Positions 24,827-46,861 of a DNA stretch of 52,297 nt are shown piece after piece. The stretch is from assembly GCA_001817065.1 (NCBI GenBank), contig MHHQ01000011.1:713-53009 (forward strand), written 5' to 3'. The stretch's first letter is position 1. The number at the start of each line of letters is the position of its first letter. Origin of the DNA: Candidatus Andersenbacteria bacterium RIFCSPHIGHO2_02_FULL_46_16. Its GTDB lineage: Bacteria; Patescibacteriota; Andersenbacteria; UBA10190. The position numbers and the translations under genes were made by a program. Under the pieces are notes generated by a model. That model had not been told where the DNA came from, did no database searches, and saw nothing but the letters and a program-made list of their open reading frames with translations.

Positions 24827-24874
24827 GTTTAGTGGTTGACTTTTCGTTCCTTTACCAACTTGGGGAGAAAAACG

Positions 24875-25441
24875 ATGTGGTATTTCAAGATGATTATTTC
24901 TTGTGTTACAACGACCATCTCCATGATCACGCTAGTAAACGCAGACGTGACCATTCACCGCGAAGGAGATGCTGACCAAAGTATTCTCAAGGTATCAAAT
25001 ATTACTCTGGAAGAAACAGCCGAAAAAAAAGTATCCCTCCACATTTTTGATGACGAGAAAAAAAACAGATTCACACTGTCTATGAGTAACGCCGAGTTGA
25101 ACGAGTTGGCCAAGGAGATAACTACTCGCTTGGACTACAGAAAAGAAACAGTCCTTGATACAAATCACCCGTTTTACCAACAGGCCGCGGCCAGAGGACC
25201 AGTTAAAATTGAAAGATTGTCCGTTAGCGAATGTCGCACTTTTCATCTCGACCAGGCAGCACAACATAAAGACTTACATGCCAAAGCGTACTTCTGTTAT
25301 ATCGGAACCAGCGATAACAACCGATTGATCATCGATAATATCCAATTAGCAGTTGGTTCAGAAAAAATGATTTATCTCCTGCTTCTGCTCACCGACAAGG
25401 ACGCCAAGTCATTAGTAACTGCCATCGATAAACGAACTTAG
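24875..25441 (+). CDS. Secreted orphan protein, 188 aa
   Basis: Family not recognised. The ATG is preceded by a strong GGGGAG site (24862-24867), so I reject the upstream in-frame start. The first 25 residues form a signal peptide or anchor (WYFKMIISCVTTTISMITLVNA, then D). The rest is soluble, rich in beta-type sequence, with two Cys (SECRTF, AYFCYIG) that could form one disulfide, and a hydrophobic stretch near the end (MIYLLLLLTDKD). It has its own promoter and an intrinsic terminator, so it is a one-gene unit. It is the first gene of the segment bracketed by uvrB 3' copies. Confidence 0.7.
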   Translation: MWYFKMIISCVTTTISMITLVNADVTIHREGDADQSILKVSNITLEETAEKKVSLHIFDDEKKNRFTLSMSNAELNELAKEITTRLDYRKETVLDTNHPFYQQAAARGPVKIERLSVSECRTFHLDQAAQHKDLHAKAYFCYIGTSDNNRLIIDNIQLAVGSEKMIYLLLLLTDKDAKSLVTAIDKRT

Positions 25442-25797: not shown

Positions 25798-26526
25798 TTA
25801 AAACGCAGGCGAAAGTATGGGCGGCGTAACTTTAGGAGTGTAGTAAGCGCTGAACTCTAAAGAGTCATACACATTGTGATCAGGCGGCCAATTCTGCGAT
25901 CTGCTGACACTATGCTTTGGCGCATCGGGCCATGTCCAAGATTCTTGTGCAGAATGATTAGGCGGCCAAATGCTTGACACGACCTTTACGTGGGAGGAAC
26001 CTGTTCCTGGATCTGGAAATTTAACCCAGGACAAAGAGATCGCAGAGTTATGGTTAGGAGGAAAGAGCAACGACTGAATCTGCTGATGATCGGGAGGCCA
26101 CAAGGGAGACAAAGATATATTGTGCGGATTAGGCTCAGTAAACCAAAGGTCAGACATTGTCCGACTATGCATATACGGGGATGGACCTGGCCAGTATGGC
26201 CAACTCATTGATTGTGCAGATTTATGCTCAGGAGGCCAACTCCACGTAGACGCTCCGTAATGATTCGGCGGCCAACTGAGTGACACTCTAGTGCTATGCC
26301 ATGTCATTCCCTCCCAAGTCATCGACACATCCCATCTATGATTTAGTGGCCAGGCGCTTGGCCTGGGTAAATAGAGAATCGGAAACAACTGTGTCTTAAG
26401 AAAATTGTTGATCGGACCAGTAGACAAAATAACAATCGCCAACATAACAATCGTGACCGCCACAGCTATTATGTACATCAACCCCACCTTGCTTAAAGGC
26501 TTCCTGTTTTTCTTTTTTACTGTCAT
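25798..26526 (-). CDS. Membrane-anchored WPP[N/D/E]H 12-residue repeat protein
   Basis: Family not recognised. A basic cytoplasmic N-terminus (MTVKKKNRKPLSK) and one membrane span (about 15-36) imply that the remaining 200 residues lie outside. Residues 59-224 are twelve tandem units. Seven are exactly 12 residues with consensus W-P-P-[NDE]-H-x4-S-x-[ST] (starts 59, 85, 97, 143, 155, 187, 213). Five are longer, 14-20 residues (starts 71, 109, 128, 167, 199). Every unit contains exactly one His (63, 77, 89, 101, 120, 135, 147, 159, 179, 191, 205, 217) and nearly all start with Trp. There is no Cys. Regularly spaced Trp, Pro and His suggest a repetitive beta structure that could bind metal or sugar; this is inference. 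A TTGGCG/17/TAGATA promoter lies upstream. Confidence 0.8.
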   Translation of the reverse strand: MTVKKKNRKPLSKVGLMYIIAVAVTIVMLAIVILSTGPINNFLKTQLFPILYLPRPSAWPLNHRWDVSMTWEGMTWHSTRVSLSWPPNHYGASTWSWPPEHKSAQSMSWPYWPGPSPYMHSRTMSDLWFTEPNPHNISLSPLWPPDHQQIQSLLFPPNHNSAISLSWVKFPDPGTGSSHVKVVSSIWPPNHSAQESWTWPDAPKHSVSRSQNWPPDHNVYDSLEFSAYYTPKVTPPILSPAF

Positions 26527-26719: not shown

Positions 26720-27877
26720 ATGAACCTAACGATGGCTAAATGGCGAACCAAGCTCAGTGCGCACAAGATGAACCTCTTAGGTGTTTTGCTTGTTTTCAAC
26801 ATTATCGGTTTAGTAATATTCATTTTTCTTACCGTTGCCAGCAGTAACAGTTTATTCATCGCCCAATTAAATAATCTCAATAAAAACCCAGTATCGGACA
26901 AAGTAGTCTTTCATCAAGCCATAGTCGAACAAGGCAAAGAAACTTTTTTGGATCTCCATAACTATCAGGACGTTTTTACTTATGTGTTTAGTCAATTGCC
27001 CAACGAAGTTACCATCTATCCTAGCGAGAATTACTACTATTTCACCTTTTACCATAAAAACCAATTTATCAAAGGTAATATCCGTTTGGATGTAGAAGGA
27101 AGAAAGCAAGGTAAAATAAGTTTCGCCTATTTCAGCGGACACGTCCTACCCGAAAATAAAAGCGACTTAGATTTCCTAATGAACAGTTATGAATTCCAGG
27201 CCAGCGACGGCGTTTCATTGGCTGAAGAAAATCCGTTGAAATATCGTGTTAGCTATGGAGGTAAAACAGTAGTGTTTAATTTAAACAATATCAGTCAAGA
27301 ATTACCCCCTGGCTACCCCCTATACCCTGAGGAAAAATTTGTTGCTCGAACTTTTGATGAGTCAGGCTGGCCCTTCTCATTATTGTTTGACCAAGCATCC
27401 AGCCAATTCAGGTTTATTGCCGACAACGCCAAAGACAGTCCAGAACAACTGCATGAAATTGATGAACATCTATGGTTAGGCAGACAATCAGGTTTTGCTT
27501 TTTATAAAGACAAATTCGATCGCTATGTATTAGTCGGTGTCAGCACTGACCAAACCAGACAAAACAGTTATTACGACGGTCCGTTCGACCAGTTAGCTGA
27601 TAACTTCGTAATTGATGATAATCTCAAAGAATTAATGGAACAAGCCTATCCCTACGTAACAGGCAAAATTAATAGATATGGCATATTTGTCAATGAACAA
27701 GGGGTAGCAGATGGCAGCCGCCTGGCGTTAACCCCATATAATAATTATGAATCATATGATTGGTTGCGATATTTTGTTGCCGGTTGTAAAGAAAAATCAT
27801 CTGACGAAAAACAATTACTGGCCTGCCTCACCTATGATTACAAGAAAGATGTACCAGCTAGCACGTCAAGCCAGTAA
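26720..27877 (+). CDS. Membrane-anchored extracytoplasmic orphan, 385 aa
   Basis: No named family recognised. One membrane span (about residues 18-40, LLGVLLVFNIIGLVIFIFLTV) follows a basic N-terminus, so the 340-residue remainder is probably outside the cytoplasm. It is rich in aromatic residues, with blocks such as VTIYPSENYYYFTFYHKNQFIKGN, GYPLYPEEKFVARTFDESGWPF and SYYDGPFDQLADNFV (each quoted in part), and two Cys near the end (AGCKEK, LACLTY). An ATG four codons later (AKWRTK) is a possible alternative start. No SD motif. It is divergent from the WPPNH-repeat gene across 193 bases, a layout that often joins functionally related genes. Confidence 0.75.
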   Translation: MNLTMAKWRTKLSAHKMNLLGVLLVFNIIGLVIFIFLTVASSNSLFIAQLNNLNKNPVSDKVVFHQAIVEQGKETFLDLHNYQDVFTYVFSQLPNEVTIYPSENYYYFTFYHKNQFIKGNIRLDVEGRKQGKISFAYFSGHVLPENKSDLDFLMNSYEFQASDGVSLAEENPLKYRVSYGGKTVVFNLNNISQELPPGYPLYPEEKFVARTFDESGWPFSLLFDQASSQFRFIADNAKDSPEQLHEIDEHLWLGRQSGFAFYKDKFDRYVLVGVSTDQTRQNSYYDGPFDQLADNFVIDDNLKELMEQAYPYVTGKINRYGIFVNEQGVADGSRLALTPYNNYESYDWLRYFVAGCKEKSSDEKQLLACLTYDYKKDVPASTSSQ

Positions 27878-29220: not shown

Positions 29221-30387
29221 TTACCTTGGTGTCACTATCTCTTTCTCTAAATAATTCTGTTTCTTCACTCCTAAATAACGAGCGATAACCCAAAAAATCC
29301 TTTGGCACGCGCGACCATCTCCAAACGGATTACCCTGATATCTTATAGCTGCCAATCCCTGTCTCTTCACCAACAATTGGCTCACCTCGCTAACAATATC
29401 CTCAGTTTTAGTACCTATCACTTTTACCGCTCCCACCTCTACTGCTTCAGGCCTCTCCGTTTTTTCTCGTAGCACCAGCACCGGTACACCTAATGACGGC
29501 GCTTCTTCCTGAATGCCGCCCGAATCAGTCAATACTAAATCCACTCGCGTCATCGTCTGAATAAAAGACCAATAATTAAGGGGAGGATATAAATGCACCC
29601 TTGGCTGGGATTTAAGCCGCCGCCTTACTATAGACTGAACTTGGGGATTGGGATGCACCAGAAAAATCACTTCTAAATTAGTTGTGATTTGAAGCAGTTT
29701 GTTTATCGCTGAACATATTTCCTGCAGCGGTTTGCCATGATTCTCTCGACGATGAACAGTAACCAAGATCCTCCTCGTATCATCTTTCTCCAATATAGAC
29801 GCCAAGCTGCTAGGCAAATTTCTTGGCTGTCCTAATACCAAACCCAGCGCATCAATCACCGTATTGCCTGTCATAGTAATAAATTTTTCCGGTACCCCCT
29901 CTTTCCTTAGGTTATTTCCCGCTCCTTTCGTAGCCACAAAATGTAAGTTAGATAAAACACTAATAATGCGTCTATTTACTTCTTCGGGATACGGATGAAA
30001 ACGATCGCCTGTCCGCAAACCAGCTTCAATATGTGCTATCGGTATTTGTTGATAAAAGGCTGCCAAAGCTCCTACAAAAGCTGTTGACGTGTCTCCTTGA
30101 ACCACCACCATATCTGGTCGATCATCCGCAAATATCGCTTCTAACTTAGTCAAAGAAATCGCCACAACCTCACTCAAGGTTTGATCATGCTTCATCACGT
30201 TCATATCCCAGTCCGGCTTTATTTGAAAGAGCTCCAGCACTTGATCCAACATCTCACGATGTTGGCCTGTTACTATCACCCTCACTTTCACTATTTCCGG
30301 ATATTGTTGGCAAAATTTTATTAAAGGCGCCAACTTAATAGCTTCCGGCCTCGTCCCAAAAATAATCGCCAACTTCTTCTTAACCAT
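29221..30387 (-). CDS. wecB: UDP-N-acetylglucosamine 2-epimerase (non-hydrolysing)
   Basis: The enzyme interconverts UDP-GlcNAc and UDP-ManNAc, supplying ManNAc-type residues for surface polymers. Signature stretches are FGTRPEAIKLAPLI at the N-terminus, HIEAGLRTGDRFHPYPEEVNRR in the middle, and TDSGGIQEEAPSLGVPVLVLRE near the C-terminus. The length of 388 is normal. The start lies 67 bases inside the upstream FAD-enzyme gene, so the two are translationally linked. UDP-ManNAc dehydrogenase (WecC) is not present here. Confidence 0.93.
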   Translation of the reverse strand: MVKKKLAIIFGTRPEAIKLAPLIKFCQQYPEIVKVRVIVTGQHREMLDQVLELFQIKPDWDMNVMKHDQTLSEVVAISLTKLEAIFADDRPDMVVVQGDTSTAFVGALAAFYQQIPIAHIEAGLRTGDRFHPYPEEVNRRIISVLSNLHFVATKGAGNNLRKEGVPEKFITMTGNTVIDALGLVLGQPRNLPSSLASILEKDDTRRILVTVHRRENHGKPLQEICSAINKLLQITTNLEVIFLVHPNPQVQSIVRRRLKSQPRVHLYPPLNYWSFIQTMTRVDLVLTDSGGIQEEAPSLGVPVLVLREKTERPEAVEVGAVKVIGTKTEDIVSEVSQLLVKRQGLAAIRYQGNPFGDGRACQRIFWVIARYLGVKKQNYLEKEIVTPR

Positions 30388-31745
30388 CCCTTCAACTTAC
30401 TTCTAGTCCCGCTTTTTTGCACTTGATAATTTTCAAATATTTTGTTCAATGCCGTCTCTACAACCTGTATAGTTTCATTCACATTTAAATTACCTTTTAG
30501 AATTTGCGCGGAATTCACTGCCCACACCCCAGGTATACTTGTTTCCATGTTTGGTAAATATTCTGAATAACACAAAGTCGGTAATGCCATCAAATAACGG
30601 GCACGCGAAACTTTGAAATCTACCACATCTTTGCGCGAAAATTTTGGATACATTCTCTCCAGAGTGCTTAAACACCTTTCCTTCACCTTTTCATCTGATT
30701 CCCGCGATAATTCTTCCTCATCCATCGTGTATTTCGGCAAGTACACTAGAGACAGGCCGCCTAACTCATTTTTATCGACAACCGCTGTCAACTCAATCAC
30801 CCCGGTAAATGGCACCTCCTCATCAGTAATGTTCGTTATATAGTATTCAGACAATGGTTTCTTCAGTAGGACTGACGAACAAACTATCCCTAAATATTCT
30901 ATATTATTGAATCCGCTTCTCTCTTCACTAGACAACCCTAGACAGGTTGCCGCAATAATTGGTGCCGGTACGGTATAAACAACTCTATCAAACTCTCTCC
31001 TCACTCCATTATCAAGCCGCACTACAATTCTCCCCCCTCCCCCTACTACCGCTTCACTAACTCCTGCCCCAACAATCACCTCTGCCCCCCGCTGTTTTAA
31101 AACCTCTGCTAATCTATTTAGTATTCTGGCATACCCACCGTGTACATAGCCAAACGTCTCCCGCCCATGTCTACGCGAGCGAGCTTTGTACATCCGTTGA
31201 GTATGGGCCCAAATAAACACTGCTGAAGTTTTCGTATAGCTTTCACCCAACTTTGCTCTGAGCAGCGGCCGCCAAATCTTTTGCCATACAATTTCACCCG
31301 ACCAGCGCTTTAACCATTTCTCGACCGTCAGTTTTTCTAATCGGTGCCAATTCCTGACTCTCGATATCATAAAAATCGTCCCGCCCAATCGCATCCTCTC
31401 CCACCACTTCAACACGGGAAAAGTTAAAAACTCCCACACACTCGACATGGACAAGAATCTCCCCCCACAATAAAATCCAGTTTTAGTTTCTACCCAACTC
31501 ACTTCCTGTTCTAACTCCAAATCATGCAACAAGTTTCGTAGGTGAACATCAGACAACAACATTACATGATAATGCTTATCCCATCTAATACCACCAATTT
31601 CCCAAGTGCCAGCTAATCCACCTAATTCCTGATCCGCTTCCAACACTGTCACTTTATGTCCCTTCTGAGATAACCTAAAGGCGAGTGTTAAGCCCAACAT
31701 ACCGCCACCAACCACCGCCCAATGTTTAGAGCCCATTCCTGTCAT
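30321..31745 (-). CDS. FAD-dependent amine-oxidase-like oxidoreductase
   Basis: The N-terminal dinucleotide-binding fold VVGGGMLGLTLAFRLSQKGHKVTVLEAD binds FAD. The following GGLAGTWEIGG and the C-terminal NLNVNETIQVVETALNKI fit the NAD(P)-binding Rossmann / amino-oxidase group that includes protoporphyrinogen oxidase, carotenoid desaturases and UDP-galactopyranose mutase-like enzymes. The substrate cannot be told from sequence. Its location between glycosyltransferases and wecB suggests a role in modifying a glycan or its lipid carrier. A basic, Trp-rich tail extends past the conserved end and overlaps wecB by 67 bases. An alternative ATG lies three codons downstream. Confidence 0.8.
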   Translation of the reverse strand: MTGMGSKHWAVVGGGMLGLTLAFRLSQKGHKVTVLEADQELGGLAGTWEIGGIRWDKHYHVMLLSDVHLRNLLHDLELEQEVSWVETKTGFYCGGRFLSMSSVWEFLTFPVLKWWERMRLGGTIFMISRVRNWHRLEKLTVEKWLKRWSGEIVWQKIWRPLLRAKLGESYTKTSAVFIWAHTQRMYKARSRRHGRETFGYVHGGYARILNRLAEVLKQRGAEVIVGAGVSEAVVGGGGRIVVRLDNGVRREFDRVVYTVPAPIIAATCLGLSSEERSGFNNIEYLGIVCSSVLLKKPLSEYYITNITDEEVPFTGVIELTAVVDKNELGGLSLVYLPKYTMDEEELSRESDEKVKERCLSTLERMYPKFSRKDVVDFKVSRARYLMALPTLCYSEYLPNMETSIPGVWAVNSAQILKGNLNVNETIQVVETALNKIFENYQVQKSGTRSKLKGWLRRSWRLFLGRGRKLLSWRL

Positions 31746-31758
31746 ATCGTCAATCCGA

Positions 31759-32502
31759 CTATATAGATCCTAAGCGCCGACGAAATATCAACATCAATGT
31801 CTGACAAATTGTTCGGCCTACCCGCATCTTGCTATTTTTTCCTCGCTGCTCATAATGCAACTCTAGCGGCACTTCACTCATTCTTACACCAGGTAGTTTG
31901 GCCAGCTTCAACAACAAGTCCGCCATACACGAATAGCCAGTTTCCGTTATCAAATTCTTGCCATATTCTCGAACCCCTCGCTGTAGAACGCTTGCACGAT
32001 AGACACGATAGCCACAAGAATAATCACGCACCCCCTCTATTGGTAACAATAACCCAAACAACCCTCGCGCACATTGACTATAGACCTTTCGCGTCCAGGG
32101 CACGCCCGATAACACTGCTCCCTTTCGAAACCTAGATGCAATCACAACATCATAGCCCTCACTGATCCTTTGTACCATTTGCGGCACCAACTTAGGTGGA
32201 TGTGTATTATCCGCATCCATTGTAACGATTAAATCTTGACCGTCGGCAAGCTTTAACACAGCAAACAATCCTGTTCTTAAGGCTGCTGCCAGTCCCAGAT
32301 TACGTTTATGTTGTATTAGAACTAATGGAGAACATTTAGCCGCCTTCTCCGCCACCAAAGGTGTCCGATCACTGCTTCCATCATCAACAACAACAATTTC
32401 AAAAGGGGTGCCTTTTATTATTTCTTTGTTTCCTAAATCGTGCAACAACCCTTCCAACGACCTCTCTTCATTATAAGCAGGCAATATTATGAATATTTTC
32501 AT
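31759..32502 (-). CDS. GT2 family polyprenyl-phosphate sugar synthase-like
   Basis: A GT-A fold with IFIILPAYNEERSLEGLL, the nucleotide-binding VVVDDGSSDRTP and the catalytic-metal TMDADNTHPP is typical of dolichyl/polyprenyl-phosphate mannose synthases. No C-terminal membrane spans are present, so it resembles the soluble Dpm1 type. The enzyme would charge a polyprenyl phosphate with a sugar from a nucleotide donor, feeding the GT-C transferases around it. I start at the ATG directly before the KIFIILPAYNEE strand; an ATG 22 codons earlier (32568) is possible. Confidence 0.85.
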   Translation of the reverse strand: MKIFIILPAYNEERSLEGLLHDLGNKEIIKGTPFEIVVVDDGSSDRTPLVAEKAAKCSPLVLIQHKRNLGLAAALRTGLFAVLKLADGQDLIVTMDADNTHPPKLVPQMVQRISEGYDVVIASRFRKGAVLSGVPWTRKVYSQCARGLFGLLLPIEGVRDYSCGYRVYRASVLQRGVREYGKNLITETGYSCMADLLLKLAKLPGVRMSEVPLELHYEQRGKNSKMRVGRTICQTLMLIFRRRLGSI

Positions 32503-32604
32503 ATCCAGCCCATCTCTACCCCCCTTTTTTTGAGTTAAGCTTTTTAACAGTTCAAGCCTATCAACCATAAATCAATGTAACTTCTATCATTGTCAACCCA
32601 CAAA

Positions 32605-34050
32605 TTATGGATGACTAATATAGCGCCGGCTCTCCTTAACAGATACCGCAATTAGAACCAACAACATTACTGAAACCAAGTAATAATATCCAATCAGACC
32701 TAAGCTTCCGAGAAAAAATATACTAAACATCGTAATTACTACTATATATATAAAACTGGGAAAATCATTTCTTTTTCTAAAAAACCAACCTGTGATTACG
32801 ACCGCTAAAAGTCCAGCTGGCAAAGACAAGCCTATCCATGGGATTTTACAGTTCGGACAAAACTCCAGCAACAGCGTACTTGTTGAAAGACTGTCCGTCC
32901 TGAACATCACCTTATGCAAAATATAGAAAAAACCATTGTATATCGTTTCATATAAACCACTAGATAAAAAAGGAATGATCGGTAGTAATGCCCCTAATAC
33001 AACATAGACAATGCGATGAATTTTCTTTTCGGTCATACACCACGGCAAGACCAATAAAGCCAGATATGGCTTTGTTGATAAAAACAAGCCGTAAACCACA
33101 GCCCTTACTGCTGGTAATAATTTATAAACTGACAGGAGAGTAAATAAAACAAACAAAAAGACAATAACCACTTCCGAAAAACTGCCACCCACAATCAATA
33201 TTTCACGCGGATGATACAAAAAAAGCAATGTTATAATTTCCGAACTCACCGCATTCATTGTTCGTCGCGACACTAACCATAACAGACAAGCAGTAACAGT
33301 TAACAGAGCCGCCGAACCGTACCTGACATCTCCTAAAAGTAAATAGGACAAAGCGAAAGGATATAAATTAATTGGTGGATATGTATAGCCGGTAGTATCC
33401 ATATTAGTCTGCCATGTCGTTGTTTCTGCCGTATAAGGATTAATGCCATCAACCACATACGATGCCGCTCTCTGATTGCATACAAAAATATCAATAGTGG
33501 GACTCGGCACCGCTCGAGGTACTAAAAACCACAACATAATCGGCAACGAGGCTATAATCAAGAATAGGATAGACCGATAAAAAACCCATCTTGGAATCAG
33601 TCCGTAGGCAATAAATATTGTTATGACCGCCACCAAAGAGACCTTTTGGCTCAGCTGTTGATACCATGCCTCGGGAGCAGGATATAAATCAGCGATCGGC
33701 ATCACTAGCCAGCTGAGTACAGAAAAACACAAAGCTACCAGCAACATATTTTCTGCTGACATTCCTACTTTTAATTTCTCCCGCTTATACCAGCCCTTGG
33801 CAGCCGCTATCAACAATCCAAAACTAACAGCCACAAACAAAAAAGCCATGCGATTATAAAATCCATAGCTAATAACCAAAGCATTTATCAGAGCAACGTA
33901 AGATATAATCAAAAGAGGATTTACATGTATCAATCGACACGGCTTATATGCATCACATATGTACCCGTTACGTTTCCTAAATAAACCCCGCCGGCAAACC
34001 CTTCTAACTAATCTCGTACTTATAAAATATTTTTTTAAACTCTTAATCAT
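32605..34050 (-). CDS. Multi-span membrane glycosyltransferase-like protein (GT87/DUF2029-like)
   Basis: About eleven membrane spans follow a very basic N-terminus. The conserved-looking loops INPYTAETTTW, GYTYPPINLYPFALSYLLLG and STKPYLALLVLPW resemble GT87/DUF2029 mannosyltransferases that use polyprenyl-phosphate sugars on the outer membrane face. The acidic residue that usually follows the first span is not obvious, so the assignment is by topology and loop motifs. It begins a minus-strand run in the glycan locus; a plus-strand gene of similar type is divergent from it. Confidence 0.65.
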   Translation of the reverse strand: MIKSLKKYFISTRLVRRVCRRGLFRKRNGYICDAYKPCRLIHVNPLLIISYVALINALVISYGFYNRMAFLFVAVSFGLLIAAAKGWYKREKLKVGMSAENMLLVALCFSVLSWLVMPIADLYPAPEAWYQQLSQKVSLVAVITIFIAYGLIPRWVFYRSILFLIIASLPIMLWFLVPRAVPSPTIDIFVCNQRAASYVVDGINPYTAETTTWQTNMDTTGYTYPPINLYPFALSYLLLGDVRYGSAALLTVTACLLWLVSRRTMNAVSSEIITLLFLYHPREILIVGGSFSEVVIVFLFVLFTLLSVYKLLPAVRAVVYGLFLSTKPYLALLVLPWCMTEKKIHRIVYVVLGALLPIIPFLSSGLYETIYNGFFYILHKVMFRTDSLSTSTLLLEFCPNCKIPWIGLSLPAGLLAVVITGWFFRKRNDFPSFIYIVVITMFSIFFLGSLGLIGYYYLVSVMLLVLIAVSVKESRRYISHP

Positions 34051-34206
34051 CCTTCCTTACTTACCAATCGCTTAAATAAATTACTAGTTAACTCCAACAT
34101 ATCATATTCACTCGGCCACAATCCAAAACCGAACCAGACTCCCGCTTTCTTGCTCAATCCCCAACCATCTCTCTCATCAATCCTTACTGGCGCCTGGATC
34201 AAACTA

Positions 34207-34212
34207 TATAAT
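34207..34212 (+). promoter_or_regulatory. TATAAT box deciding the start of the next gene
   Basis: A perfect TATAAT lies 18 bases ahead of the ATG at 34231, with TTACTG 17 bp upstream as a weak -35. It falls inside the longer TTG-started frame, arguing for the ATG. Confidence 0.5.
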
Positions 34213-34230
34213 TCCAACATACTCAAAATT

Positions 34231-35493
34231 ATGTCATCCCAGACCTGTCGGATTTATATATCAGCCAAACACCTCTACCTCCCTTTGATAACTATCGGTT
34301 TACTTATTTTCCTCGCCTACTTGCCGGTTTTTTATTTCCATCTCCACACAGACGTCACTAACTTTTTCACCCAGTCCACCCAATTTCTGTCTACCGGTAC
34401 TTGGCAAGATATGATCTACCAAGAATACCAACCCGCCTCGCTCTGGTTTATCTTGCTCCCCCATATCTTTTCCCCCAACGCTACCGAAGCCCACTATATT
34501 GCCTCGTTTGTTTTTGTTAATGCCATTATTCTCCTTATCTACTTTCTGATAATCGCCCGACTCCTTCCCCATTCCTCCACTTTAATATCCACTCTCCTTT
34601 TAATAGCCACGGGGCCAATCCTACTCTTTAGGCTAGAGCCTCTAGTCGGGTTATTAATTTTACTCGCCTGGTTCAGCCATTTAAAAACCCGGCACATCCT
34701 AGCGGGTATTTTTGTCGGCCTGGCTATTTTTACCAAACTTTATGCTGTAATTCTTTGGCCACTCATGGCTGCCCATTATCTCATATTCTTGCGCCAGCGC
34801 GACCTCTTCATCCAATTTGTCACTGCTACGCTAATCGGGATAGCCATCCCTTTGCTTCCCTTCCTGATGCTGGGTAATCCCCTCAGTGATGTTTACGCCA
34901 CCATTACTAATTTTCAGAACAAACCAATCGGAATGGATAGCATGTGGGGCAACTTAATCATTATAAAATATCAGCTGCTATACAAACGTAGTCCCCCGAT
35001 CGATAACAGCTTAGGCATTAACGGCTTTCCTGCCACCACCACCAACGCGCCTTTGTCTTTTTTTAACCACGCCTGGGTAATTCCTACGGGCAGTCTGCTA
35101 TTTGCTCTCCTTTGGCGCTACCGTCACGTCGGTTACGCCGACCCCCTTCTTCCCCTCCTGGTTCTGCTTGTATTTCTCCTCTTTTCTAAAATAATTAACC
35201 CTCAATACCTCTGGTGGTTTGCTTCTTTGCTCCCGTTATTAACGCTATCCAAACAAAACAAGCAAGCAATGGCTGCTATTGTAGGAGTCACGCTTGTCTC
35301 TCTTATCTTAACCCAGCTCTATTATCCAATCTTTTACAATCAGGTGCTGGCTTGGACTAATCATCAAGCTGCCGGATCTCTTCCTGTCTCGCTTTCTATC
35401 CTTCGCAATGGCTGCCTATTCTTAGTCCTGTTTTTGCTATCCGGCATGTCCTACAAATTTAGGCTGACCAAAACACCTCACCCCGATCAGTAG
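34231..35493 (+). CDS. Multi-span membrane glycosyltransferase-like protein
   Basis: The product is 420 residues with about ten membrane spans. After the first span comes HTDVTNFFTQSTQFLSTG, with the Asp expected in the first external loop of GT-C enzymes. Later loops FTKLYAVILWPL and NPQYLWWFASLLPLL match the GT87 pattern. It would transfer a sugar from a polyprenyl-phosphate donor outside the membrane. It is one of only two GT-C-type genes on the plus strand in the locus and has its own TATAAT promoter. The tail meets the GT2 gene on the other strand with a 3-base gap. Confidence 0.7.
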   Translation: MSSQTCRIYISAKHLYLPLITIGLLIFLAYLPVFYFHLHTDVTNFFTQSTQFLSTGTWQDMIYQEYQPASLWFILLPHIFSPNATEAHYIASFVFVNAIILLIYFLIIARLLPHSSTLISTLLLIATGPILLFRLEPLVGLLILLAWFSHLKTRHILAGIFVGLAIFTKLYAVILWPLMAAHYLIFLRQRDLFIQFVTATLIGIAIPLLPFLMLGNPLSDVYATITNFQNKPIGMDSMWGNLIIIKYQLLYKRSPPIDNSLGINGFPATTTNAPLSFFNHAWVIPTGSLLFALLWRYRHVGYADPLLPLLVLLVFLLFSKIINPQYLWWFASLLPLLTLSKQNKQAMAAIVGVTLVSLILTQLYYPIFYNQVLAWTNHQAAGSLPVSLSILRNGCLFLVLFLLSGMSYKFRLTKTPHPDQ

Positions 35494-35496
35494 ACA

Positions 35497-36240
35497 CTAA
35501 TCTCTGCTCACCGCCCGATAATTTTGCCACCAAAAACGCCATGTTTCATAAATCGTTCCCAGTACCACTCTGGGGTGTGCCGCCTTAGAAACACCACTAA
35601 CTCTGGGACGATGTGTCACACCCACCTGGGCAATTTTGTACCCCCGCCTGCACGCCTGTAATAATATTTCCGCATCAATAAAACCATGTTTCGAACTAAT
35701 ACTAATCTGGTCCAGCAGATGATGAGGTACTAGTTTAAAGGCACAATTAACATCCTTCACATCCAGATTAAACATGAGGCGCACCTGCCAGTTGTAACAC
35801 CAGGAAGTGAAACGACGGAATGCCGAATATTGTTTTTTGATCCGATAACCAACTGCTAAATCAGCCTGCGACAGTTGTTCAATCAGCTTGGGCAGTTCAT
35901 TAACATCAAACTGATCATCACCATCCGTATAAAAAACCCAATCATAGCGGGCACTCTTAAAACCATCATTCAGTGTCGCCCCATAACCCAGATTCTCCGG
36001 GTGGTGAACGACCCGCACTTTGTTATACCTCCGGGCTAGCTCATCCGCGACCTCGGCCGTTTTATCTGGACTGCCATCTTCCACGATCACAATTTCATAG
36101 TCATCAAGCCCTAATTTTTCGAGCACTTTAACAGTTGACGTCACGACCTTGCCAATATTGCCCTCATCAAAATACGCTGGGAAAAATACCGACAGATTTC
36201 GCAGTGGTGGGTGAGACCAAGCCAAATGATTTGTTTTCAT
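35497..36240 (-). CDS. GT2 family polyprenyl-phosphate sugar synthase-like
   Basis: The GT-A motifs are SVFFPAYFDEGNIGKVV, IVIVEDGSPDKTAEVA and FYTDGDDQFDVNEL, followed by VNCAFKLVPHHLLDQI near the acceptor side. This pattern fits dolichyl-phosphate glucose or mannose synthase-like enzymes without membrane spans. The start is the ATG at 36240; a GTG three codons upstream is weaker. Its likely partner is one of the neighbouring GT-C proteins. A 106-base gap with no evident feature follows on the upstream side. Confidence 0.85.
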   Translation of the reverse strand: MKTNHLAWSHPPLRNLSVFFPAYFDEGNIGKVVTSTVKVLEKLGLDDYEIVIVEDGSPDKTAEVADELARRYNKVRVVHHPENLGYGATLNDGFKSARYDWVFYTDGDDQFDVNELPKLIEQLSQADLAVGYRIKKQYSAFRRFTSWCYNWQVRLMFNLDVKDVNCAFKLVPHHLLDQISISSKHGFIDAEILLQACRRGYKIAQVGVTHRPRVSGVSKAAHPRVVLGTIYETWRFWWQNYRAVSRD

Positions 36241-36346
36241 ATCATTCACACCTTACCACAGGCCAACTACCAGACACCATCAATTGTGCATCTAAAAAGT
36301 CATTAAATAAATTCTGCTTTTAGCCATTTTTAACATCCGTCAGTTT

Positions 36347-37738
36347 TCATTTACTCAACTGCAGGCACAAGATAGTTATATCCGTTATATGCACAATAAA
36401 AAGTAAAACAAAAACTGTGTTAGACACTTCTTGCCAGCGCGTTACTTCCCTTATCCTTCTGTAAAATATATCCGCCGCTTCGCCGAAAAGATAAACATTA
36501 GCTAATATTACTGGTAAAATGTAGATCACTTTCATCGCGTAAAAAGGGCGATAATTAATAGAATACGACACCCCCGCAGCCAAGAAAGCTATCACCCCCA
36601 ACAATATAAAAAAGGTGGACGAGGACAGCCCCTCTCCTCTCGTTATTTTTTTTATCATGTCATGTCCTGTTCGCCATATGCCAAACATAAATAGGCCTAG
36701 CGGCCACAACCCAAGCACCATACTAGCTCGTCCAACCATTCTAATAAACGGCGTATCGAGCTCCCAACTAGACGGCCAGCGCTCAAAATGCACAAAGTTA
36801 AACCTCCCGTACAACTGGCTCCAATACGATGTGCGATGCAAGGGGTACTCTTCATTGCCTAACGTAATCATCGGTTCCTGTAACAATCCTTCTATCCTGA
36901 AAGTAAAGAAAGAATCATAAATTGACGTTACCCCCGGCCTATCACCGTACGTCTGCTTGAACCAAAATGGCCGCGGCTCAACTTGATACCTCGGTCCAAA
37001 AAACTCACCCTCTGCCATCCAGTCACTCCAGTAGGGGGTTAGTGGAATGACGATAAAACAAAAAATTAATATCACCAACAAGATCAGAAACACCGCCCGT
37101 GGTTGACTCACCAAACGTTTCTTCCCCCACCACAACGCTTCCACCAATAAAGTACTGATCAAGACTGCGAACAGCACTAGCCCGCCGCCTTTAGTCAAGG
37201 CCATCAAGACCGTCATCACCATTCCTTGATAAAAGTACTTCTGTCTTCCTGTCTCGAAAAACATAATGGTCAGCCAAACCGCTGCCGTACCAAAGAATAT
37301 TGCCCAACTATCATTAGTAGCCTGGGCGCTAATACCAATCAAACGGGGATTAAAGGATACTAAGCTCAGCGCAATTAACTTTACGGGTATCTGCCAACGT
37401 CTTTTAAAAATAAATGCATAGGCAATTATAACCACCCCCGATCCAGCCAAAGCATTGAGCAACTGTGCGGTTTTTATCTGTCCTTCCCCAGACAAAGTCG
37501 CTGGCAATAATTGCCACACCATAGCCACACTCGCATGCCATAATTTTGGGTGATAGGCCATCACCATCTCTGTTCGCATTGGTACTCTCCCCTCGTTCGC
37601 GATTACTCGGCTAACACTTAAATGGTCGTCATTACTTTCTAGATTGACTAGCGCTAGCACTAACCTAAGCAGCACCCCTATGCCAATCACCACGATAGCC
37701 CACCGCGTTGCTAAGTCCGTTTTCTGCCAACTGATCAT
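36347..37738 (-). CDS. Multi-span GT-C glycosyltransferase-like protein
   Basis: The 463-residue protein has about ten spans. The first external loop contains ESNDDHLSVSRVIANEG and MAYHPKLWHASVAMVW; paired acidic residues in this position are characteristic of GT39-like GT-C enzymes. A large external loop (residues ~235-320, YWSDWMAEGEFFGPRYQ onward) lies between spans. The substrate is unknown. The start overlaps the stop of the upstream gene by 4 bases (ATGA), showing translational coupling with another GT-C gene. Confidence 0.7.
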   Translation of the reverse strand: MISWQKTDLATRWAIVVIGIGVLLRLVLALVNLESNDDHLSVSRVIANEGRVPMRTEMVMAYHPKLWHASVAMVWQLLPATLSGEGQIKTAQLLNALAGSGVVIIAYAFIFKRRWQIPVKLIALSLVSFNPRLIGISAQATNDSWAIFFGTAAVWLTIMFFETGRQKYFYQGMVMTVLMALTKGGGLVLFAVLISTLLVEALWWGKKRLVSQPRAVFLILLVILIFCFIVIPLTPYWSDWMAEGEFFGPRYQVEPRPFWFKQTYGDRPGVTSIYDSFFTFRIEGLLQEPMITLGNEEYPLHRTSYWSQLYGRFNFVHFERWPSSWELDTPFIRMVGRASMVLGLWPLGLFMFGIWRTGHDMIKKITRGEGLSSSTFFILLGVIAFLAAGVSYSINYRPFYAMKVIYILPVILANVYLFGEAADIFYRRIREVTRWQEVSNTVFVLLFIVHITDITILCLQLSK

Positions 37739-39006
37739 ACTTCTTGCTTAATTCGTTGCTGAGCCATCAAACCGAGACCGATGATGCACATTAATACGGG
37801 CAACAACGCCATAAAACTAATCATTGCTTCGGGCATGCTGTAAAATCTTCCCCCGTAAAACATCGCATAGGAAAACAGGCCATTAATTAATGACGACAAA
37901 CTAAGCATCACGTAGGCAGGCAAAGTAATCCGATGATCGAAGTCAAATAACACAAAAGCGAATAAAACAAAGAAGGGAAAAATATGCCGCTCGTGTGCTC
38001 GAGTCAGCAAGGTGAAGGCGGCTAACGATAACAACGATCCAGCCAAGAAAACTGCTGGTAAACTTGCTTTACGCCGCCACAAACAGAAGGTAACTAAAGC
38101 AGCATAACCAATAAACAATAACGTACCCCAAGTGCGATATGTCACGCCTAGCCACATCAAGCTGTCTGGTTGCCAATTACTTCGCACCACTACCCAAAAA
38201 TTAAAAGCGTTAACCGACGCAAATGGAAAGCGACTGGCTGCTACACCTGCCTGCCCCTGCATCAATTGCCAAGGCTCTACCAACAAACCTCGGGTTTCTC
38301 GTTGCTCATTTAGTAAAAACGGTAATGCTAATAACCAAATCGATCCCAGAAATACTGAGCCAAATAGTATTATTTGCCTGATAAAATCTTTTCTTTTCTC
38401 CCGCCACAACAAGACCAATACCAGTGGCAAAAGTACCACCGAGTGAGGCTTAAATTGTGTAGCTAGCGCCAGCAGGAAAGCCGACGTTCCAGTCCGTCGG
38501 TAATAGGCCATCAACAACACTGCCACTAACAATAATCCTTGCACTGCATCCATCTGTCCCCATAAGGACGAAATATACCAGGTGAATGGATTGAAGAAAT
38601 AGAGGCAACCGGCGATTATCCCCTTGGTTTCTCCAGAACGCCTTCCCACCTGCCAATACAACAAACCAGCAAGTACCACGTCCGCTATATGCGCTGGCAA
38701 TTTATAAAGCAAGGTCTGGGAAATATCTGGCCACTGATTACTGATTTCTCCCAGTCCCCACAATAAATACAATATCCCCCCCGGCAGACGATCGCTCCAA
38801 CCAGCATCAAAGAAACCCGCACTTCCCTGACGTTGCAGCAAATCCCCCCAACTTATAAAAAATTCCATATCGCTCACAAACGTTCCGTACTCTGCAACCA
38901 ATAATCGGAGCACCAAACCAAAACTCATTATCATCAGAAAAAACCAAGCATTCGATTTCCTTAACGTTGTATAACTATTTAGTGACTGGCTAGCTGTCCC
39001 GCTCAT
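37735..39006 (-). CDS. Multi-span GT-C glycosyltransferase-like protein
   Basis: The 423-residue protein has about ten spans. FVSDMEFFISWGDLLQ in the first external loop and SLWGQMDAVQGLLL further on resemble the ALG6/GT87 type of polyprenyl-phosphate-dependent glycosyltransferase. The ATQFKPHSVVLLPLVL loop is also typical. It lies between a PIG-V-like gene (1-base gap) and a coupled GT-C gene, so three transferases are probably made from one transcript. Confidence 0.72.
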   Translation of the reverse strand: MSGTASQSLNSYTTLRKSNAWFFLMIMSFGLVLRLLVAEYGTFVSDMEFFISWGDLLQRQGSAGFFDAGWSDRLPGGILYLLWGLGEISNQWPDISQTLLYKLPAHIADVVLAGLLYWQVGRRSGETKGIIAGCLYFFNPFTWYISSLWGQMDAVQGLLLVAVLLMAYYRRTGTSAFLLALATQFKPHSVVLLPLVLVLLWREKRKDFIRQIILFGSVFLGSIWLLALPFLLNEQRETRGLLVEPWQLMQGQAGVAASRFPFASVNAFNFWVVVRSNWQPDSLMWLGVTYRTWGTLLFIGYAALVTFCLWRRKASLPAVFLAGSLLSLAAFTLLTRAHERHIFPFFVLFAFVLFDFDHRITLPAYVMLSLSSLINGLFSYAMFYGGRFYSMPEAMISFMALLPVLMCIIGLGLMAQQRIKQEV

Positions 39007-39007
39007 A

Positions 39008-40153
39008 TTAGTAGGCTCCCCAGCTTTGATTAAAATACCCCATAAACAGCGCCATACATCCCACTGACAAAAGCGTCAGCGGCACAGCCAACCATCGGTA
39101 TTTCCCAACTTTTCCTAGCAACATAAATATCGGAAACGCTGTTAAAACATAACGGGGTGTGCTTTCCAATTTCGTTGTCGACAGAATAATAAAAGAAATT
39201 CCTAATAAATATACGAAGTAAGACGTCCGTAACCGGAAAAAGGACACGACCAAGCCGACCAGCAAGCCCATCCCAGCTAACCACTCAGCCAGGCCTGTCA
39301 TCACCCCACTTTTGGAAAAGGGGAAAGATCCCATTACCCGCCATCTTTCTGCTAAACCAACCCAGGGCCACGAAAAAGATTTTTGCCAGTTTCCCCCCAC
39401 CACATTCATAAAAGCCAGCCAATCACCGAACAACTGATAATTATAAAGCAAATAAACCAGGAAGCTGCCTGGAATTAAGCTTAACCACACCACCTGAAAA
39501 CGCTTCTGATGATTATCTTTCCGCTGCAAAAAGAACTCTAGCAACAAGGCTGGAAATAAGAATAATCCCAGTATCTTGGTAAAAGCCGCCAAACTACCTA
39601 ACACGCCAGCTCCCCACCACCAACCTTTTCTCGCGCAATAAAACGCTCCCACAGCCAAACATAGAAAAACGCCCTCCGTGTAAGCAGCGTTAAAGAAATA
39701 CGCTGAAGGGAATAGCAGAAAGGCGACTAGTGCATACCAAGCCACTTGCCGACCCAGCTCCAGTCGCGTCAATCGATAAAACAAGTACAAACCAACTATA
39801 GAAAATATATTAGACACAGACATAGAAGCACTGATAAAACTTCCTGTTATTTCTTTAACTATCCGGATCAAGATAGGGTATAGCGGTAGAAAGACAATGC
39901 GATTGGCCGCATAACCAGTCGCCGCATATCCGGTGTCAGCCAAGCCGTGATACCAAGCGCTATCCCATCGGTCCCAAATAATCAGTAAAAATTGCATCAC
40001 AGTCTCTTCTCCTTGAGCTTCTGCCATCAGTAGAGCAACTATGATGCTTAAGGCAAAAAGAGCAATTTTTACACCAACAATCATTAACAATACTTCTGTC
40101 TGTTCCCACTTAACAAAACGGCTGATCGTTCTTCCCAAATCTCGCATCGGCAT
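39008..40153 (-). CDS. PIG-V-like mannosyltransferase (GT76-type)
   Basis: The signatures IIWDRWDSAWYHGLADTGY, NRIVFLPLYPILIR and PSAYFFNAAYTEGVFLCLA (each partly quoted) match the GPI mannosyltransferase 2 (PIG-V) superfamily, which in bacteria transfers mannose or related sugars from polyprenyl-phosphate donors outside the cell. About nine spans; 381 residues. The Asp-Arg-Trp-Asp motif after the first span holds the presumed catalytic acidic residues. It follows the GT2 gene at 40174 by 20 bases. Confidence 0.83.
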   Translation of the reverse strand: MPMRDLGRTISRFVKWEQTEVLLMIVGVKIALFALSIIVALLMAEAQGEETVMQFLLIIWDRWDSAWYHGLADTGYAATGYAANRIVFLPLYPILIRIVKEITGSFISASMSVSNIFSIVGLYLFYRLTRLELGRQVAWYALVAFLLFPSAYFFNAAYTEGVFLCLAVGAFYCARKGWWWGAGVLGSLAAFTKILGLFLFPALLLEFFLQRKDNHQKRFQVVWLSLIPGSFLVYLLYNYQLFGDWLAFMNVVGGNWQKSFSWPWVGLAERWRVMGSFPFSKSGVMTGLAEWLAGMGLLVGLVVSFFRLRTSYFVYLLGISFIILSTTKLESTPRYVLTAFPIFMLLGKVGKYRWLAVPLTLLSVGCMALFMGYFNQSWGAY

Positions 40154-40173
40154 AACTTTCCTGTTTATATTTA

Positions 40174-40878
40174 TTAACCTCTCTGGCTGCGTAAGGCGAC
40201 TAGTGCCTTAAGCATCTGCCAAACCACATCCCAACGGGCACCTGTTGGTCGGCCGCCTTGCCTGGAGAAATGCGTCACTGCCACTTCTTTGATTTTCACC
40301 CCCCGTTGTTTCAGCCGCCACATCCACTCCACAGTAAATATCTTATGGTCACGAGAATTAATTGGTTGAATTTTCACCCACACCTCTCGCTTAAATAGCT
40401 TAAAACCACAGCCTATGTCTTTCAGACTCAAACCAAATAATAAATTAATTAATAGCGTATAACCCCACGAAAACATTCTTCTTAACCCTCCATCCGCCCT
40501 ATTCCGGCGAGTGCCCACGACCACATCAAATTCATCTGCGAACGGCCACAACTGCTCCACGGACTCTATTCTAAATTGGCCGTCGGAGTCCATCAGTAAA
40601 ATCCGCTCCAACCTTGCGGCATTAAACCCGGTCCACAGTGCCTCGCCGTAACCTTGATTATGAGAGTGTTGAATTAGTTTAATTAAAGCCCCCTTTTTTA
40701 TTAGGCTATTAACTGCCCCCACCGAACCGTCCTTTGACCCATCATCGACCACGATAATTTCATACAAAGCCCCACTCTTCGTTAAGTAGCTGCTGACATT
40801 TTCCAGCGTACCGGTAATTGCTCTTTCCTCATTGAACATGGGCAAAACCACTGACAGACTTCGCGTGATAGCCATCAT
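40174..40878 (-). CDS. GT2 family polyprenyl-phosphate sugar synthase-like
   Basis: SVVLPMFNEERAITGTL, IIVVDDGSKDGSVGAV and LLMDSDGQFRIESVEQL give the GT-A donor site; DIGCGFKLFKREVW and VAVTHFSRQGGRPTGAR follow as in dolichyl-phosphate glucose synthase-like proteins. The 234-residue length has no room for membrane spans. The ATG at 40878 overlaps the stop of the upstream GT-C gene by four bases, so a lipid-sugar synthase is made together with a transferase that could use its product. Confidence 0.86.
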   Translation of the reverse strand: MMAITRSLSVVLPMFNEERAITGTLENVSSYLTKSGALYEIIVVDDGSKDGSVGAVNSLIKKGALIKLIQHSHNQGYGEALWTGFNAARLERILLMDSDGQFRIESVEQLWPFADEFDVVVGTRRNRADGGLRRMFSWGYTLLINLLFGLSLKDIGCGFKLFKREVWVKIQPINSRDHKIFTVEWMWRLKQRGVKIKEVAVTHFSRQGGRPTGARWDVVWQMLKALVALRSQRG

Positions 40879-42314
40879 ACCACACCAATCACTCTGGCAG
40901 TCCATAAAATGTTAAAAACCCAAACTGCCTCATAAAACCACAGGATACACAATAAGACCATTATCAATGACGAAAACTCAAAATGTTTACTCCGCCACAA
41001 CAGCACAACAGCCACTACCCCATACAATAATAGTAACAAGATTCTCAGTGCCGTGGTGTCAGGCACGATATTGCTGCTCTGCACCACCATCGCCACTAAA
41101 GGCAAAAACAGAAACAAATACACTTTTTCTCCTTTATATAACTCATAAAACACATGCCCCAAACCCAAACCTATTAAAGGATAAAGCATATATTTATACC
41201 AACCATAAGTTTCTTCCGGGGAAAAATACAAGAAGACAAGCGAGATTATCAGCAAAACACTCGCTATATACACTCCCTGGTCTTTGTTGCGATACTTATG
41301 CCCTAAACCAATTAAACCTAGAGGTCCGATGGTCATTGACGGATCATATAAAGTAAAGTCCCCGATATTATACCAAGTCATAATAGACCAAAAATGAATA
41401 AAGGACTGACGTCGGCTATGATGAGCTTCCAATACATTCAAAAAAACTTCCCAATTGTAAAAATAACCCCATACTCCAAATACCAACACTGAAACCAACC
41501 CGCTTGTTATCAACATTACTGCCAATTTCGTTCTTCGTTGATATAGAGCCAAAAATATCAACGTCGCTACCACCACCACTCCAGATAATTTAACTAGAAT
41601 AGCAGTCAAGCTAATAGCACCCAACGTATACCAAGCTATGCTTCGCTGCCGCTGGTTCGCGCTGCGGCTATAAACATCATAAGCATACAAACCTCCTATC
41701 AATAGGAAGCCAATCCAATGCTCTGCCGCCACAAAGCGGGATGACACTACATGTGATGGAAAAAAAACCATAGCCGCTAAAGTGAACAAAGCTAAAGTGG
41801 GACCAAACACTCGCTTGGTATAAACATACAACAGCCCAATGGTCGCAATCGACAATATTATCATGGGTAATCGAACCTTAGCCCAGTCCATGTTTTGGAC
41901 ATCGGTCTCACCCACTAACCATGCCCAACCGCCTACCATTAATGAGAATAATGGCGGATGGTCCAAGTAAGGAGTTACTATATTCCCCTGCGGCATTATT
42001 CCGCCTCGCATATAAGCATCATAAAATAATGTCCAGGTGCTAGGTACTCCCGTTTGAATAACCGACGTCCCTACCATCAGCCAAGTCTTTTCATCATCTA
42101 GGATAGGCTGAAAATCTCCCAAATTTACTATCCTTAAAAACAATCCAACTATCAGTAAAAACACAACCAATACCTGCCGGTATGTCACCTTTACTTTTCC
42201 CGTTCGCCACCACCGATAACCCTGCTCTAACCAAGAACGCAAGGTAACGAACGCCGTTACTGGGTTCTCTATATTCATATTTGCCATCCCCGCAGTGTAC
42301 ACTGACAAAACCAT
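40875..42314 (-). CDS. GT39/ArnT-like GT-C glycosyltransferase
   Basis: The 479-residue protein has about twelve spans. The first external loop reads PILDDEKTWLMVG, with the Asp-Asp-Glu typical of PMT/ArnT-like (GT39/GT83) enzymes, followed by TPYLDHPPLFSLMVGGWAWL. Members transfer sugars from polyprenyl phosphates to proteins or lipids. Both ATG 42314 and ATG 42287 are possible starts. It is divergent from the plus-strand gene at 42368 with a 53-base gap. Confidence 0.78.
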   Translation of the reverse strand: MVLSVYTAGMANMNIENPVTAFVTLRSWLEQGYRWWRTGKVKVTYRQVLVVFLLIVGLFLRIVNLGDFQPILDDEKTWLMVGTSVIQTGVPSTWTLFYDAYMRGGIMPQGNIVTPYLDHPPLFSLMVGGWAWLVGETDVQNMDWAKVRLPMIILSIATIGLLYVYTKRVFGPTLALFTLAAMVFFPSHVVSSRFVAAEHWIGFLLIGGLYAYDVYSRSANQRQRSIAWYTLGAISLTAILVKLSGVVVVATLIFLALYQRRTKLAVMLITSGLVSVLVFGVWGYFYNWEVFLNVLEAHHSRRQSFIHFWSIMTWYNIGDFTLYDPSMTIGPLGLIGLGHKYRNKDQGVYIASVLLIISLVFLYFSPEETYGWYKYMLYPLIGLGLGHVFYELYKGEKVYLFLFLPLVAMVVQSSNIVPDTTALRILLLLLYGVVAVVLLWRSKHFEFSSLIMVLLCILWFYEAVWVFNILWTARVIGVV

Positions 42315-42367
42315 CCCTCACAAACACCCAACTTGACTTGTTTCGTTATTACGCTTTGATTATTTAA

Positions 42368-44224: not shown

Positions 44225-45837
44225 CTCCCATCTAAAAACGACTCTGATTTATTATACTCGTCAATTAATTCATCGTACGCACCACTGTTAAATTTATATA
44301 TTTCTTTCAATCTTTTCTTACTCCATAGTTCGCCTCTAATTACCACAGACAAATGTTCCCAATACTCCACTAATGCCAAGTTAGTAATGACATTATCGCC
44401 GGTTTCCAATGACCTTATATAACCCTCCGGAATATCTCGAGCAAAATGACCGATTCGCCAATTCATATCAGAATTGTAATCATGAAAAGTACGGCTTATG
44501 GGTAGTCGAGACCGCAAAGCATCACCAATCGTATGAACGTCAATGATATAAGCTTCCGGCCCGGCATAATATCCGAAATAACCTATGTTCATTGACGTAT
44601 ATATGCCCAGTCCTTCCCCCCTAGCTTTTTGACCATCAACCGCCCAAGAGTGACGTGGCATAGGATAGCCTGGCTTAGCGTTTAATAAACCCGCCGCACG
44701 ATAGTAAAATCCGCGTTCGTCTGCTATCGAACGCACCACGTTCGTAGCACCCGGCAGTTCAGCGTAATTCTTCCCGCTTAATAGCGGTGAACGAGGCGAT
44801 TGTATACTGATCAATAACACAACCATCAGCCACCCCAACCAAACTCGCTCCATAAAGGGAAAATCACAGTTGATGATTATTAACACAGCCAGCAGGAACG
44901 AAGAGGTAAAAAAACGACCACTCATAAAATCCCCACCAATCCATACGATATAAGATAAATAACTTAAAATGCCGATAGATACAGGCATCAACTTCCTGTC
45001 CCACAAAAAAAACGGCAAGACTAAGCCCACACCGACCACCAGCAGTGTCAGAGGGTCAATATTAATAGAATCAATGAAGTAATAAAAACCCTGCCTAATA
45101 ACCTCAATCTCCGGCACCCCATGACCCAGCTTGGCGTAAGCAGTGTTGGGCCAAACAAATCCATAATAGAACAAGGAAAATATGCACCAAGCAATAATAG
45201 GGGACAATCCCAGCAATCCGGCTATGATTGCTTTCCTTTTGGGCAAACGCCAACCCATAGCAACTAGCACCGGCGCGAACAGCAAAATATTATCCATACG
45301 ACTCAACATTGCCCATCCTGCAATAAATGACAGGTTAAACAATGTCTTCATTGACGCCTCATTTCGCAAATAAACTAACACAAAGAATATGACCATTAAG
45401 TTAGTCAAAGGATTTTCTAATCCGGAAACTGAAAAATCTACAAATGCCTTAGAAGATACTAAAACAACGATTGCCGCTATCCCCGTAGACCGTTCACTTG
45501 CTGCTTTAAAAATAACTAACCAAGCCGCGATCAGAGATACTCCTAACGATAAAAATATACTGGCATAATAGGCCTCTCCAGTTAACCATTGCATTGGTAT
45601 CATCAGTATTAGCCACAAAGGATGCGTGTATACCTGAACCCGCTCCACTACATTCCAGGTTAGGCCATAACCATGCAAAAAATTATCTACAACCCTAAAA
45701 CTAATAAACGCGTCTTCAGCTACCCAGGCATTACGCAAAAGGACAACCAAGAAAAAGACCAATACTAGCGCCACCAAAACAAAATCACCGCGCTCTTCTC
45801 GTGCTTTGCCTCTAGTCATTTCCCTATATGTTTTCAT
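44221..45837 (-). CDS. AftB-like GT-C glycosyltransferase
   Basis: EDAFISFRVVDNFLHGYGLTWN and VQVYTHPLWLILMIP follow the first span and closely resemble the start of actinobacterial AftB-type arabinofuranosyltransferases and their many uncharacterised bacterial relatives. About ten spans, then a C-terminal soluble domain of ~180 residues (IGYFGYYAGPEAYIIDVHTIGDAL). The donor sugar cannot be inferred; a decaprenyl-phosphate-type donor is likely. The ATG at 45837 lies 14 bases before the end of the upstream reductase gene, giving overlap and coupling; the longer frame would overlap it by 134 bases. Confidence 0.75.
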   Translation of the reverse strand: MKTYREMTRGKAREERGDFVLVALVLVFFLVVLLRNAWVAEDAFISFRVVDNFLHGYGLTWNVVERVQVYTHPLWLILMIPMQWLTGEAYYASIFLSLGVSLIAAWLVIFKAASERSTGIAAIVVLVSSKAFVDFSVSGLENPLTNLMVIFFVLVYLRNEASMKTLFNLSFIAGWAMLSRMDNILLFAPVLVAMGWRLPKRKAIIAGLLGLSPIIAWCIFSLFYYGFVWPNTAYAKLGHGVPEIEVIRQGFYYFIDSINIDPLTLLVVGVGLVLPFFLWDRKLMPVSIGILSYLSYIVWIGGDFMSGRFFTSSFLLAVLIIINCDFPFMERVWLGWLMVVLLISIQSPRSPLLSGKNYAELPGATNVVRSIADERGFYYRAAGLLNAKPGYPMPRHSWAVDGQKARGEGLGIYTSMNIGYFGYYAGPEAYIIDVHTIGDALRSRLPISRTFHDYNSDMNWRIGHFARDIPEGYIRSLETGDNVITNLALVEYWEHLSVVIRGELWSKKRLKEIYKFNSGAYDELIDEYNKSESFLDGS

Positions 45838-46855: not shown

Positions 46856-46861
46856 CTTACT

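Follow-up and report, generated by a model that had tools for sequence, protein, structure and literature searches.

Proline-rich ligands are recognised by domains of the WW, EVH1 and GYF type, which hold them in an aromatic cradle, and His-rich structural or metal-binding tandem-repeat proteins are exported, repetitive chains with regularly placed His and Ser residues. The locus described here recalls both kinds of system in part. It lies in a window of 52,297 nucleotides, the whole stretch of DNA analysed, from the genome of Candidatus Andersenbacteria bacterium RIFCSPHIGHO2_02_FULL_46_16 (contig MHHQ01000011.1), which has a size of 1.36 Mb and is 98.5% complete, phylum-mates mostly having 0.5–2 Mb. 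The window encodes a membrane-anchored repeat protein (P0001) and, on the opposite strand, a second protein (P0002), hereafter the partner; repeat and partner represent a previously unrecognised pair with a probable place at the cell surface. The divergent partner gene, which a first-pass annotation of this DNA had missed, is the main result of our analysis.

Table 1. Coordinates of the repeat-partner locus in the window.
Feature	Position	Strand	Description and basis
Repeat gene (P0001)	25798..26526	-	ORF and translation; ATG start, 242 aa, membrane-anchored, WPxxH-x4-S repeats
N-terminal transmembrane helix of P0001 (residues 13-36)	26419..26490	-	Hydropathy and AlphaFold helix
Repeat array of P0001 (residues 59-224)	25855..26352	-	12 units, one His each
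Intergenic region separating the divergent start codons	26527..26719	.	193 bp
Partner gene (P0002)	26720..27877	+	385 aa; N-terminal membrane anchor and conserved extracytoplasmic domain, family unassigned; homologues in archaea and planctomycetes
Partner motif YPSENYYY (residues 100-107)	27017..27040	+	P101, E103 and Y107 invariant in 19/19 homologues
Partner motif DESG (residues 213-216)	27356..27367	+	D213, S215 and G216 invariant in 19/19; E214 in 18/19
Partner motif DGPFDQ (residues 286-291)	27575..27592	+	D286, G287 and D290 invariant in 19/19

The repeat gene is coding, and its product appears to be exported and has relatives with the same 12-residue period in archaea and planctomycetes, groups to which this bacterium is unrelated. 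A single 19-residue hydrophobic stretch begins at residue 16 (mean hydropathy 3.05) and falls within the helix modelled by AlphaFold, where the block pLDDT reaches up to 93, in line with the N-terminal membrane anchor that the first-pass annotation had proposed. Its count of 16 Trp, 12 His and no Cys in the repeat array was reproduced as well, the His residues being located at positions 63, 77, 89, 101, 120, 135, 147, 159, 179, 191, 205 and 217. The resulting spacings of 14, 12, 12, 19, 15, 12, 12, 20, 12, 14 and 12 residues, six of exactly 12, to which the last unit adds a further 12 residues, and five of 14–20, agree with the twelve units described before, seven of them regular and five expanded. 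The W-P-P-[NDE]-H-x4-S unit proved correct but idealised, as five of the twelve units are degenerate before the His and lack the Trp-Pro-Pro part (EGMTWH, PSPYMH, TEPNPH, GTGSSH and PDAPKH), and [W/F]-P-x-x-H is found in only seven. The best-kept feature is a Ser at +5 from the His in 11 units, the remaining one having it at +4; when the same residues were shuffled 50,000 times, His/Ser pairs at +5 occurred 1.9 times on average and eight times at most.

Tandem Repeats Finder detected no DNA-level tandem array at the repeat gene, the seven W/F-P-x-x-H units have 53% of their nucleotides in common, and identical Pro and Ser residues across units match in only 33% of their third bases, showing that the motif is kept at the protein level. 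Judged from its sequence, the pattern of P0001 is one of selection on the protein and not of recent DNA duplication. The AlphaFold model reaches a mean pLDDT of just 37.5, with about 27 and almost no structure in the repeat region. P0001 matched no family in Pfam, NCBIfam or PHROGs at E values up to 1 and no entry of the PDB, and the string WPPNH did not occur in the literature searched, which supports the earlier statement that no known family is built from this tandem period. No second repeat gene was found in the same genome, and a promoter and terminator scan of the intergenic region scored no better than shuffles.

Whole-protein searches with P0001 retrieved no relatives from the genomes, because the units are too diverged, with about four positions kept per unit. 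Relatives were found instead with a DNA pattern in which two W-P-x-[polar]-H units follow each other at a distance of 12 residues; it was applied to one genome per species for 84,980 species. The pattern returned 30 loci, of which seven are true relatives: two from archaea and five of planctomycete type (L022, L024, L027, L039 and L041), the labels 'planctomycete' and 'archaeon' following database records or the taxonomic groups searched. L027, recorded as Leptolyngbya sp. PLA1, has genes almost identical to those of the Phycisphaerales locus L041. The other 23 matches (e.g. L017, L020, L030, L033, L042 and L044) were dropped as other repeats, wrong frames or chance, as was L002 from a protein search of 79 relatives (E 4e-4, residues 12–66), a mere membrane-helix match. 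Viral contigs gave 13 pattern matches, none with a comparable repeat array. The archaeal relative L016 has 17 units with a spacing of 12 throughout, and L037, a Pacearchaeota archaeon, has two such repeat proteins on one contig. Across 130 units from 11 proteins, the consensus reads W (85%), P (88%), P (59%), [N/G/D] (75%), H, four variable residues, S (92%), x and [T/S/G], with a spacing of exactly 12 in 67 cases, and both the WPP-[NDG]-H-x4-S unit and the 12-residue period were recovered in the new pair. Identity between planctomycete orthologues is 88–91% at W, P, H and S, compared with 35–45% in the rest of the repeat region. Inspection by eye across the relatives found a hydrophobic helix or signal at the N-terminus of the repeat proteins.

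P0002 shares 29–32% identity with its homologues in archaea and planctomycetes over the whole domain, and pairwise BLASTP against such partners gave E values of 3e-46 and 1e-43. Eighteen positions are invariant among 19 homologues, comprising the motifs YPxExYY, DESG and DGPxDQ together with R268, N282, R334 and others, and there is no conserved His or Cys among them. Searches of Pfam and NCBIfam above the curated cut-off and of PDB sequences gave no match for the family, only stray weak matches of single members. The partner core was modelled by AlphaFold on the homologue P0004 (residues 58–350) as mostly strands with a block pLDDT of about 80, and Foldseek comparison of this model with the PDB and viral models yielded no global match; as the model was built from a thin alignment of five sequences only, a better one could alter the fold comparison. 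Several partners carry lipoprotein-type signals, as judged by eye. A second partner copy, 42% identical to P0002, is encoded in the same genome at the start of contig C10 (L048:85-1209), 85 bases from the contig end and adjoining pheT/pheS-like genes; a repeat gene beside it, if any, would fall in the assembly gap.

The link between both families was established from either side. In all seven genomes found from the repeat DNA alone, without partner information, a profile search detected exactly one partner, which in each case shares its contig with the repeat gene. Seeds included, the partner was otherwise present in 1 of 380 genomes of the window phylum (the genome described here, with its two copies), 5 of 347 in a planctomycete class, 4 of 324 planctomycetes, 4 of 371 in a DPANN-type archaeal phylum and 1 of 87 in another archaeal phylum. 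This is a patchy and rare distribution of about 0.3–1.4% of the genomes sampled, and viral contigs, phages and plasmids held no partner. At such background rates, a seven-out-of-seven co-occurrence by chance is out of the question. In reverse, ten more loci were collected via the partner profile alone, and each of them has a His-repeat protein adjacent or fused. Four of these proteins are directly adjacent WPxxH repeat proteins (L072, L073, L074 and L088), and six carry other His-spaced repeats (L075, L079, L080, L081, L089 and L090), which were called by eye and by spacing, with L079 as the weakest case. The latter include TTFIPRGLKHISE-type units with a spacing of about 28 in L080, WVPPGWIHSSE-type units with a spacing of about 20 in L081 and short His/Ser-rich proteins in L089 and L090.

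The inspection of neighbours in homologues, recommended in the first-pass annotation, showed that wherever the locus is not truncated by a contig end, in 18 of 18 cases, the partner adjoins a His-repeat protein or is fused to one. The sole partner without a known neighbour is the second copy at the contig end mentioned above, which is outside these 18. Gene order is variable: repeat and partner genes diverge over 193 bp in the window, converge in the archaeon L016 and are arranged as repeat-partner-repeat on one strand in the Pacearchaeota contig, and the planctomycete loci have the partner immediately downstream of one or two repeat genes that share its strand. Nine planctomycete partners end in three WPxxH-type units of their own. 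The partner domain also forms part of a 1378-aa planctomycete protein at L075:4729-8865 (-), where it is fused to a segment with a weak InhA-like MAM match and to a tandem array of about 20 units of the IPPGSKHNSGSTWHV or IPPGSKH type. Genes that stay associated while their order, strand and fusion state shift are usually linked in function, and the natural fusions in L075 and at the planctomycete partner C-termini argue for a joint function. Both families are real, conserved and linked in all 18 intact loci across two domains of life.

An all-against-all comparison of the ORFs in 16 loci revealed no further shared gene beyond those of sister genomes or scattered chance pairs. A conserved 467-aa protein adjoins the module only in a pair of sister genomes from planctomycetes (L066:12115-13518 and L069:10563-11966). 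In the window itself, the repeat gene is flanked on the side away from the partner by a 201-aa ORF (24836-25441, +) whose product is hydrophobic near the N-terminus and matches nothing in Pfam; this ORF is not conserved in the other loci. Positions 29221-48000 contain many consecutive genes of glycan and membrane glycosyltransferase-like type, including a UDP-GlcNAc 2-epimerase, a flavin amine-oxidase-like protein, a PIG-U-like membrane protein and sugar epimerases. Further out, a weak integrase core match below the cut-off (rve_3, E 9e-4) at 1114-1680 (+) is probably a transposase remnant, and two adjacent membrane-anchored ORFs of 248 and 350 aa without a Pfam match, the second of them Cys-rich, are found at 50020-50766 and 50916-51968 (+).

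The partner tree places P0002 together with archaeal and planctomycete members whose repeats are not of the WPxxH type (support 100/98). On the opposite side, WPxxH repeats are found in each of the nine planctomycete rows; two archaeal rows have them too, and the repeat type must have changed at least twice. On the simplest reading, the WPxxH unit would be old in the family and replaced in some lineages, and the patchy distribution may be explained by horizontal transfer.

We tentatively favour a two-gene envelope module, in which the partner would engage the repeats as a multivalent ligand or substrate array. Based on the sequences, the repeat protein would be fixed by its one N-terminal helix, with roughly a dozen flexible Trp-Pro-Pro-x-His-x4-Ser units exposed on the outside of the cell. 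The partner, exported or membrane-anchored, would specifically engage these units with a compact, mostly beta domain, in trans where a separate protein carries the repeats and in cis where its own C-terminus does, as in the planctomycetes and L075. Direct contact, external location and recognition of the His/Ser unit by the partner are what we infer here, and we weakly favour non-covalent multivalent recognition, such as in surface scaffold assembly or adhesion, over catalysis. Against the module, the unit sequence varies by partner clade (WPPNHxxxxS, FIPPGSKHxS and THxxxS), the three C-terminal units of P0004 are in the unmodelled part of the structure (pLDDT <50), and the non-WPxxH neighbours count as His repeats by eye and spacing.

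Catalysis is an alternative, if a rather unlikely one. The partner would then be an enzyme and the repeats its multi-site substrate, with the His or Ser of each unit being modified, cross-linked or cleaved after export. The invariant E103, D213, R268, N282, D286, D290 and R334 could form a catalytic or ligand site, the His and often a nearby Ser persist as the repeat flavour varies, as expected of an acceptor site, and the ratio of one partner gene to many units would fit. The partner, however, matches no enzyme family in sequence or fold, and self-modification would be implied for the planctomycete partners, which bear units themselves. An array of regularly spaced His could instead bind a metal ion at the surface for uptake, storage or a metal-hardened matrix, the partner being accessory. 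The regular spacing in WPxxH proteins, the persistence of His in other repeat flavours and the EF-hand or dockerin calcium sites that some planctomycete repeat proteins also bear would suit this role, but we consider it improbable, given that no conserved metal transporter or regulator is located nearby, that the partner has no conserved His or Cys, and that, unless units pair, a lone His in every 12 residues, with neither Cys nor HxH spacing, makes a poor set of ligands.

The two remaining alternatives are judged far less likely. A glycan-binding or glycan-organising scaffold serving the adjacent polysaccharide locus, as the first-pass annotation had suggested, was plausible from the position of the repeat gene about 3 kb from glycosyltransferase-like and membrane genes (UDP-GlcNAc 2-epimerase at 29221-30387) and from its many Trp residues, which are common in sugar-binding sites. 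This tie is not supported by the comparison of 16 loci, where only the repeat gene and the partner are common across phyla; the other loci share no glycan neighbours, and even in the window the conserved neighbour is the divergent partner, which makes the scaffold very improbable. Convergent low-complexity W/P/H/S repeats of independent origin, paired with the partner by coincidence, would account for the differing units of some partner clades and the repeat-type changes on the partner tree, yet are scarcely credible when a partner seen elsewhere in only about 1% of genomes occurs in all seven genomes found with the repeat pattern, and when an identical 12-residue period with W-P-P-N-H-x4-S recurs in three distant groups.

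To our knowledge, the surface biology of ultra-small bacteria and archaea is largely unexplored. Two unannotated families tied together across bacteria and archaea provide a testable system, in which one partner predicts the other. We judge the chances to be evenly balanced that they form an undescribed surface module, consisting of a new extracellular domain for recognition or modification and a matching His-Ser array, which has been transferred between ultra-small bacteria, DPANN-type archaea and planctomycetes and may serve in cell-to-cell attachment or in a surface chemistry not seen elsewhere. Should the repeats be recognised or modified by the partner, the pair would offer a new chemistry of short-peptide recognition or modification outside the cell and a handle on envelope building in ultra-small bacteria and archaea.

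Compared with described systems, the pair shows partial likenesses. Many top Foldseek matches of the partner model are YWTD beta-propellers (LRP2, LRP6 and LDLR), reflecting a local strand pattern; a YWTD or WD40 beta-propeller was rejected on TM-scores of 0.08–0.17 (0.16–0.17 for the best propeller matches; threshold at least about 0.5) at an rmsd near 15 Å, values obtained with the five-sequence model. Calcium-binding segments of the dockerin type I and EF-hand families (PF00404 and PF00036) precede the WPxxH units in the planctomycete proteins L070 and L065, but are absent from the window and the archaeal repeat proteins; the WPxxH units match neither family, and P0001 has no Asp-rich calcium loop of either in Pfam at E values up to 1. 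Among His-rich tandem-repeat proteins, the W-P-P-[NDG]-H-x4-S unit with a conserved partner was not found in the sources searched. WW, EVH1 and GYF domains show no sequence or fold match to the partner, which differs from them in being exported, and the repeat flavours of L089 and L090 lack the PP; the resemblance is one of analogy only, in that short Pro-rich units would face a partner with many conserved Tyr and Phe residues.
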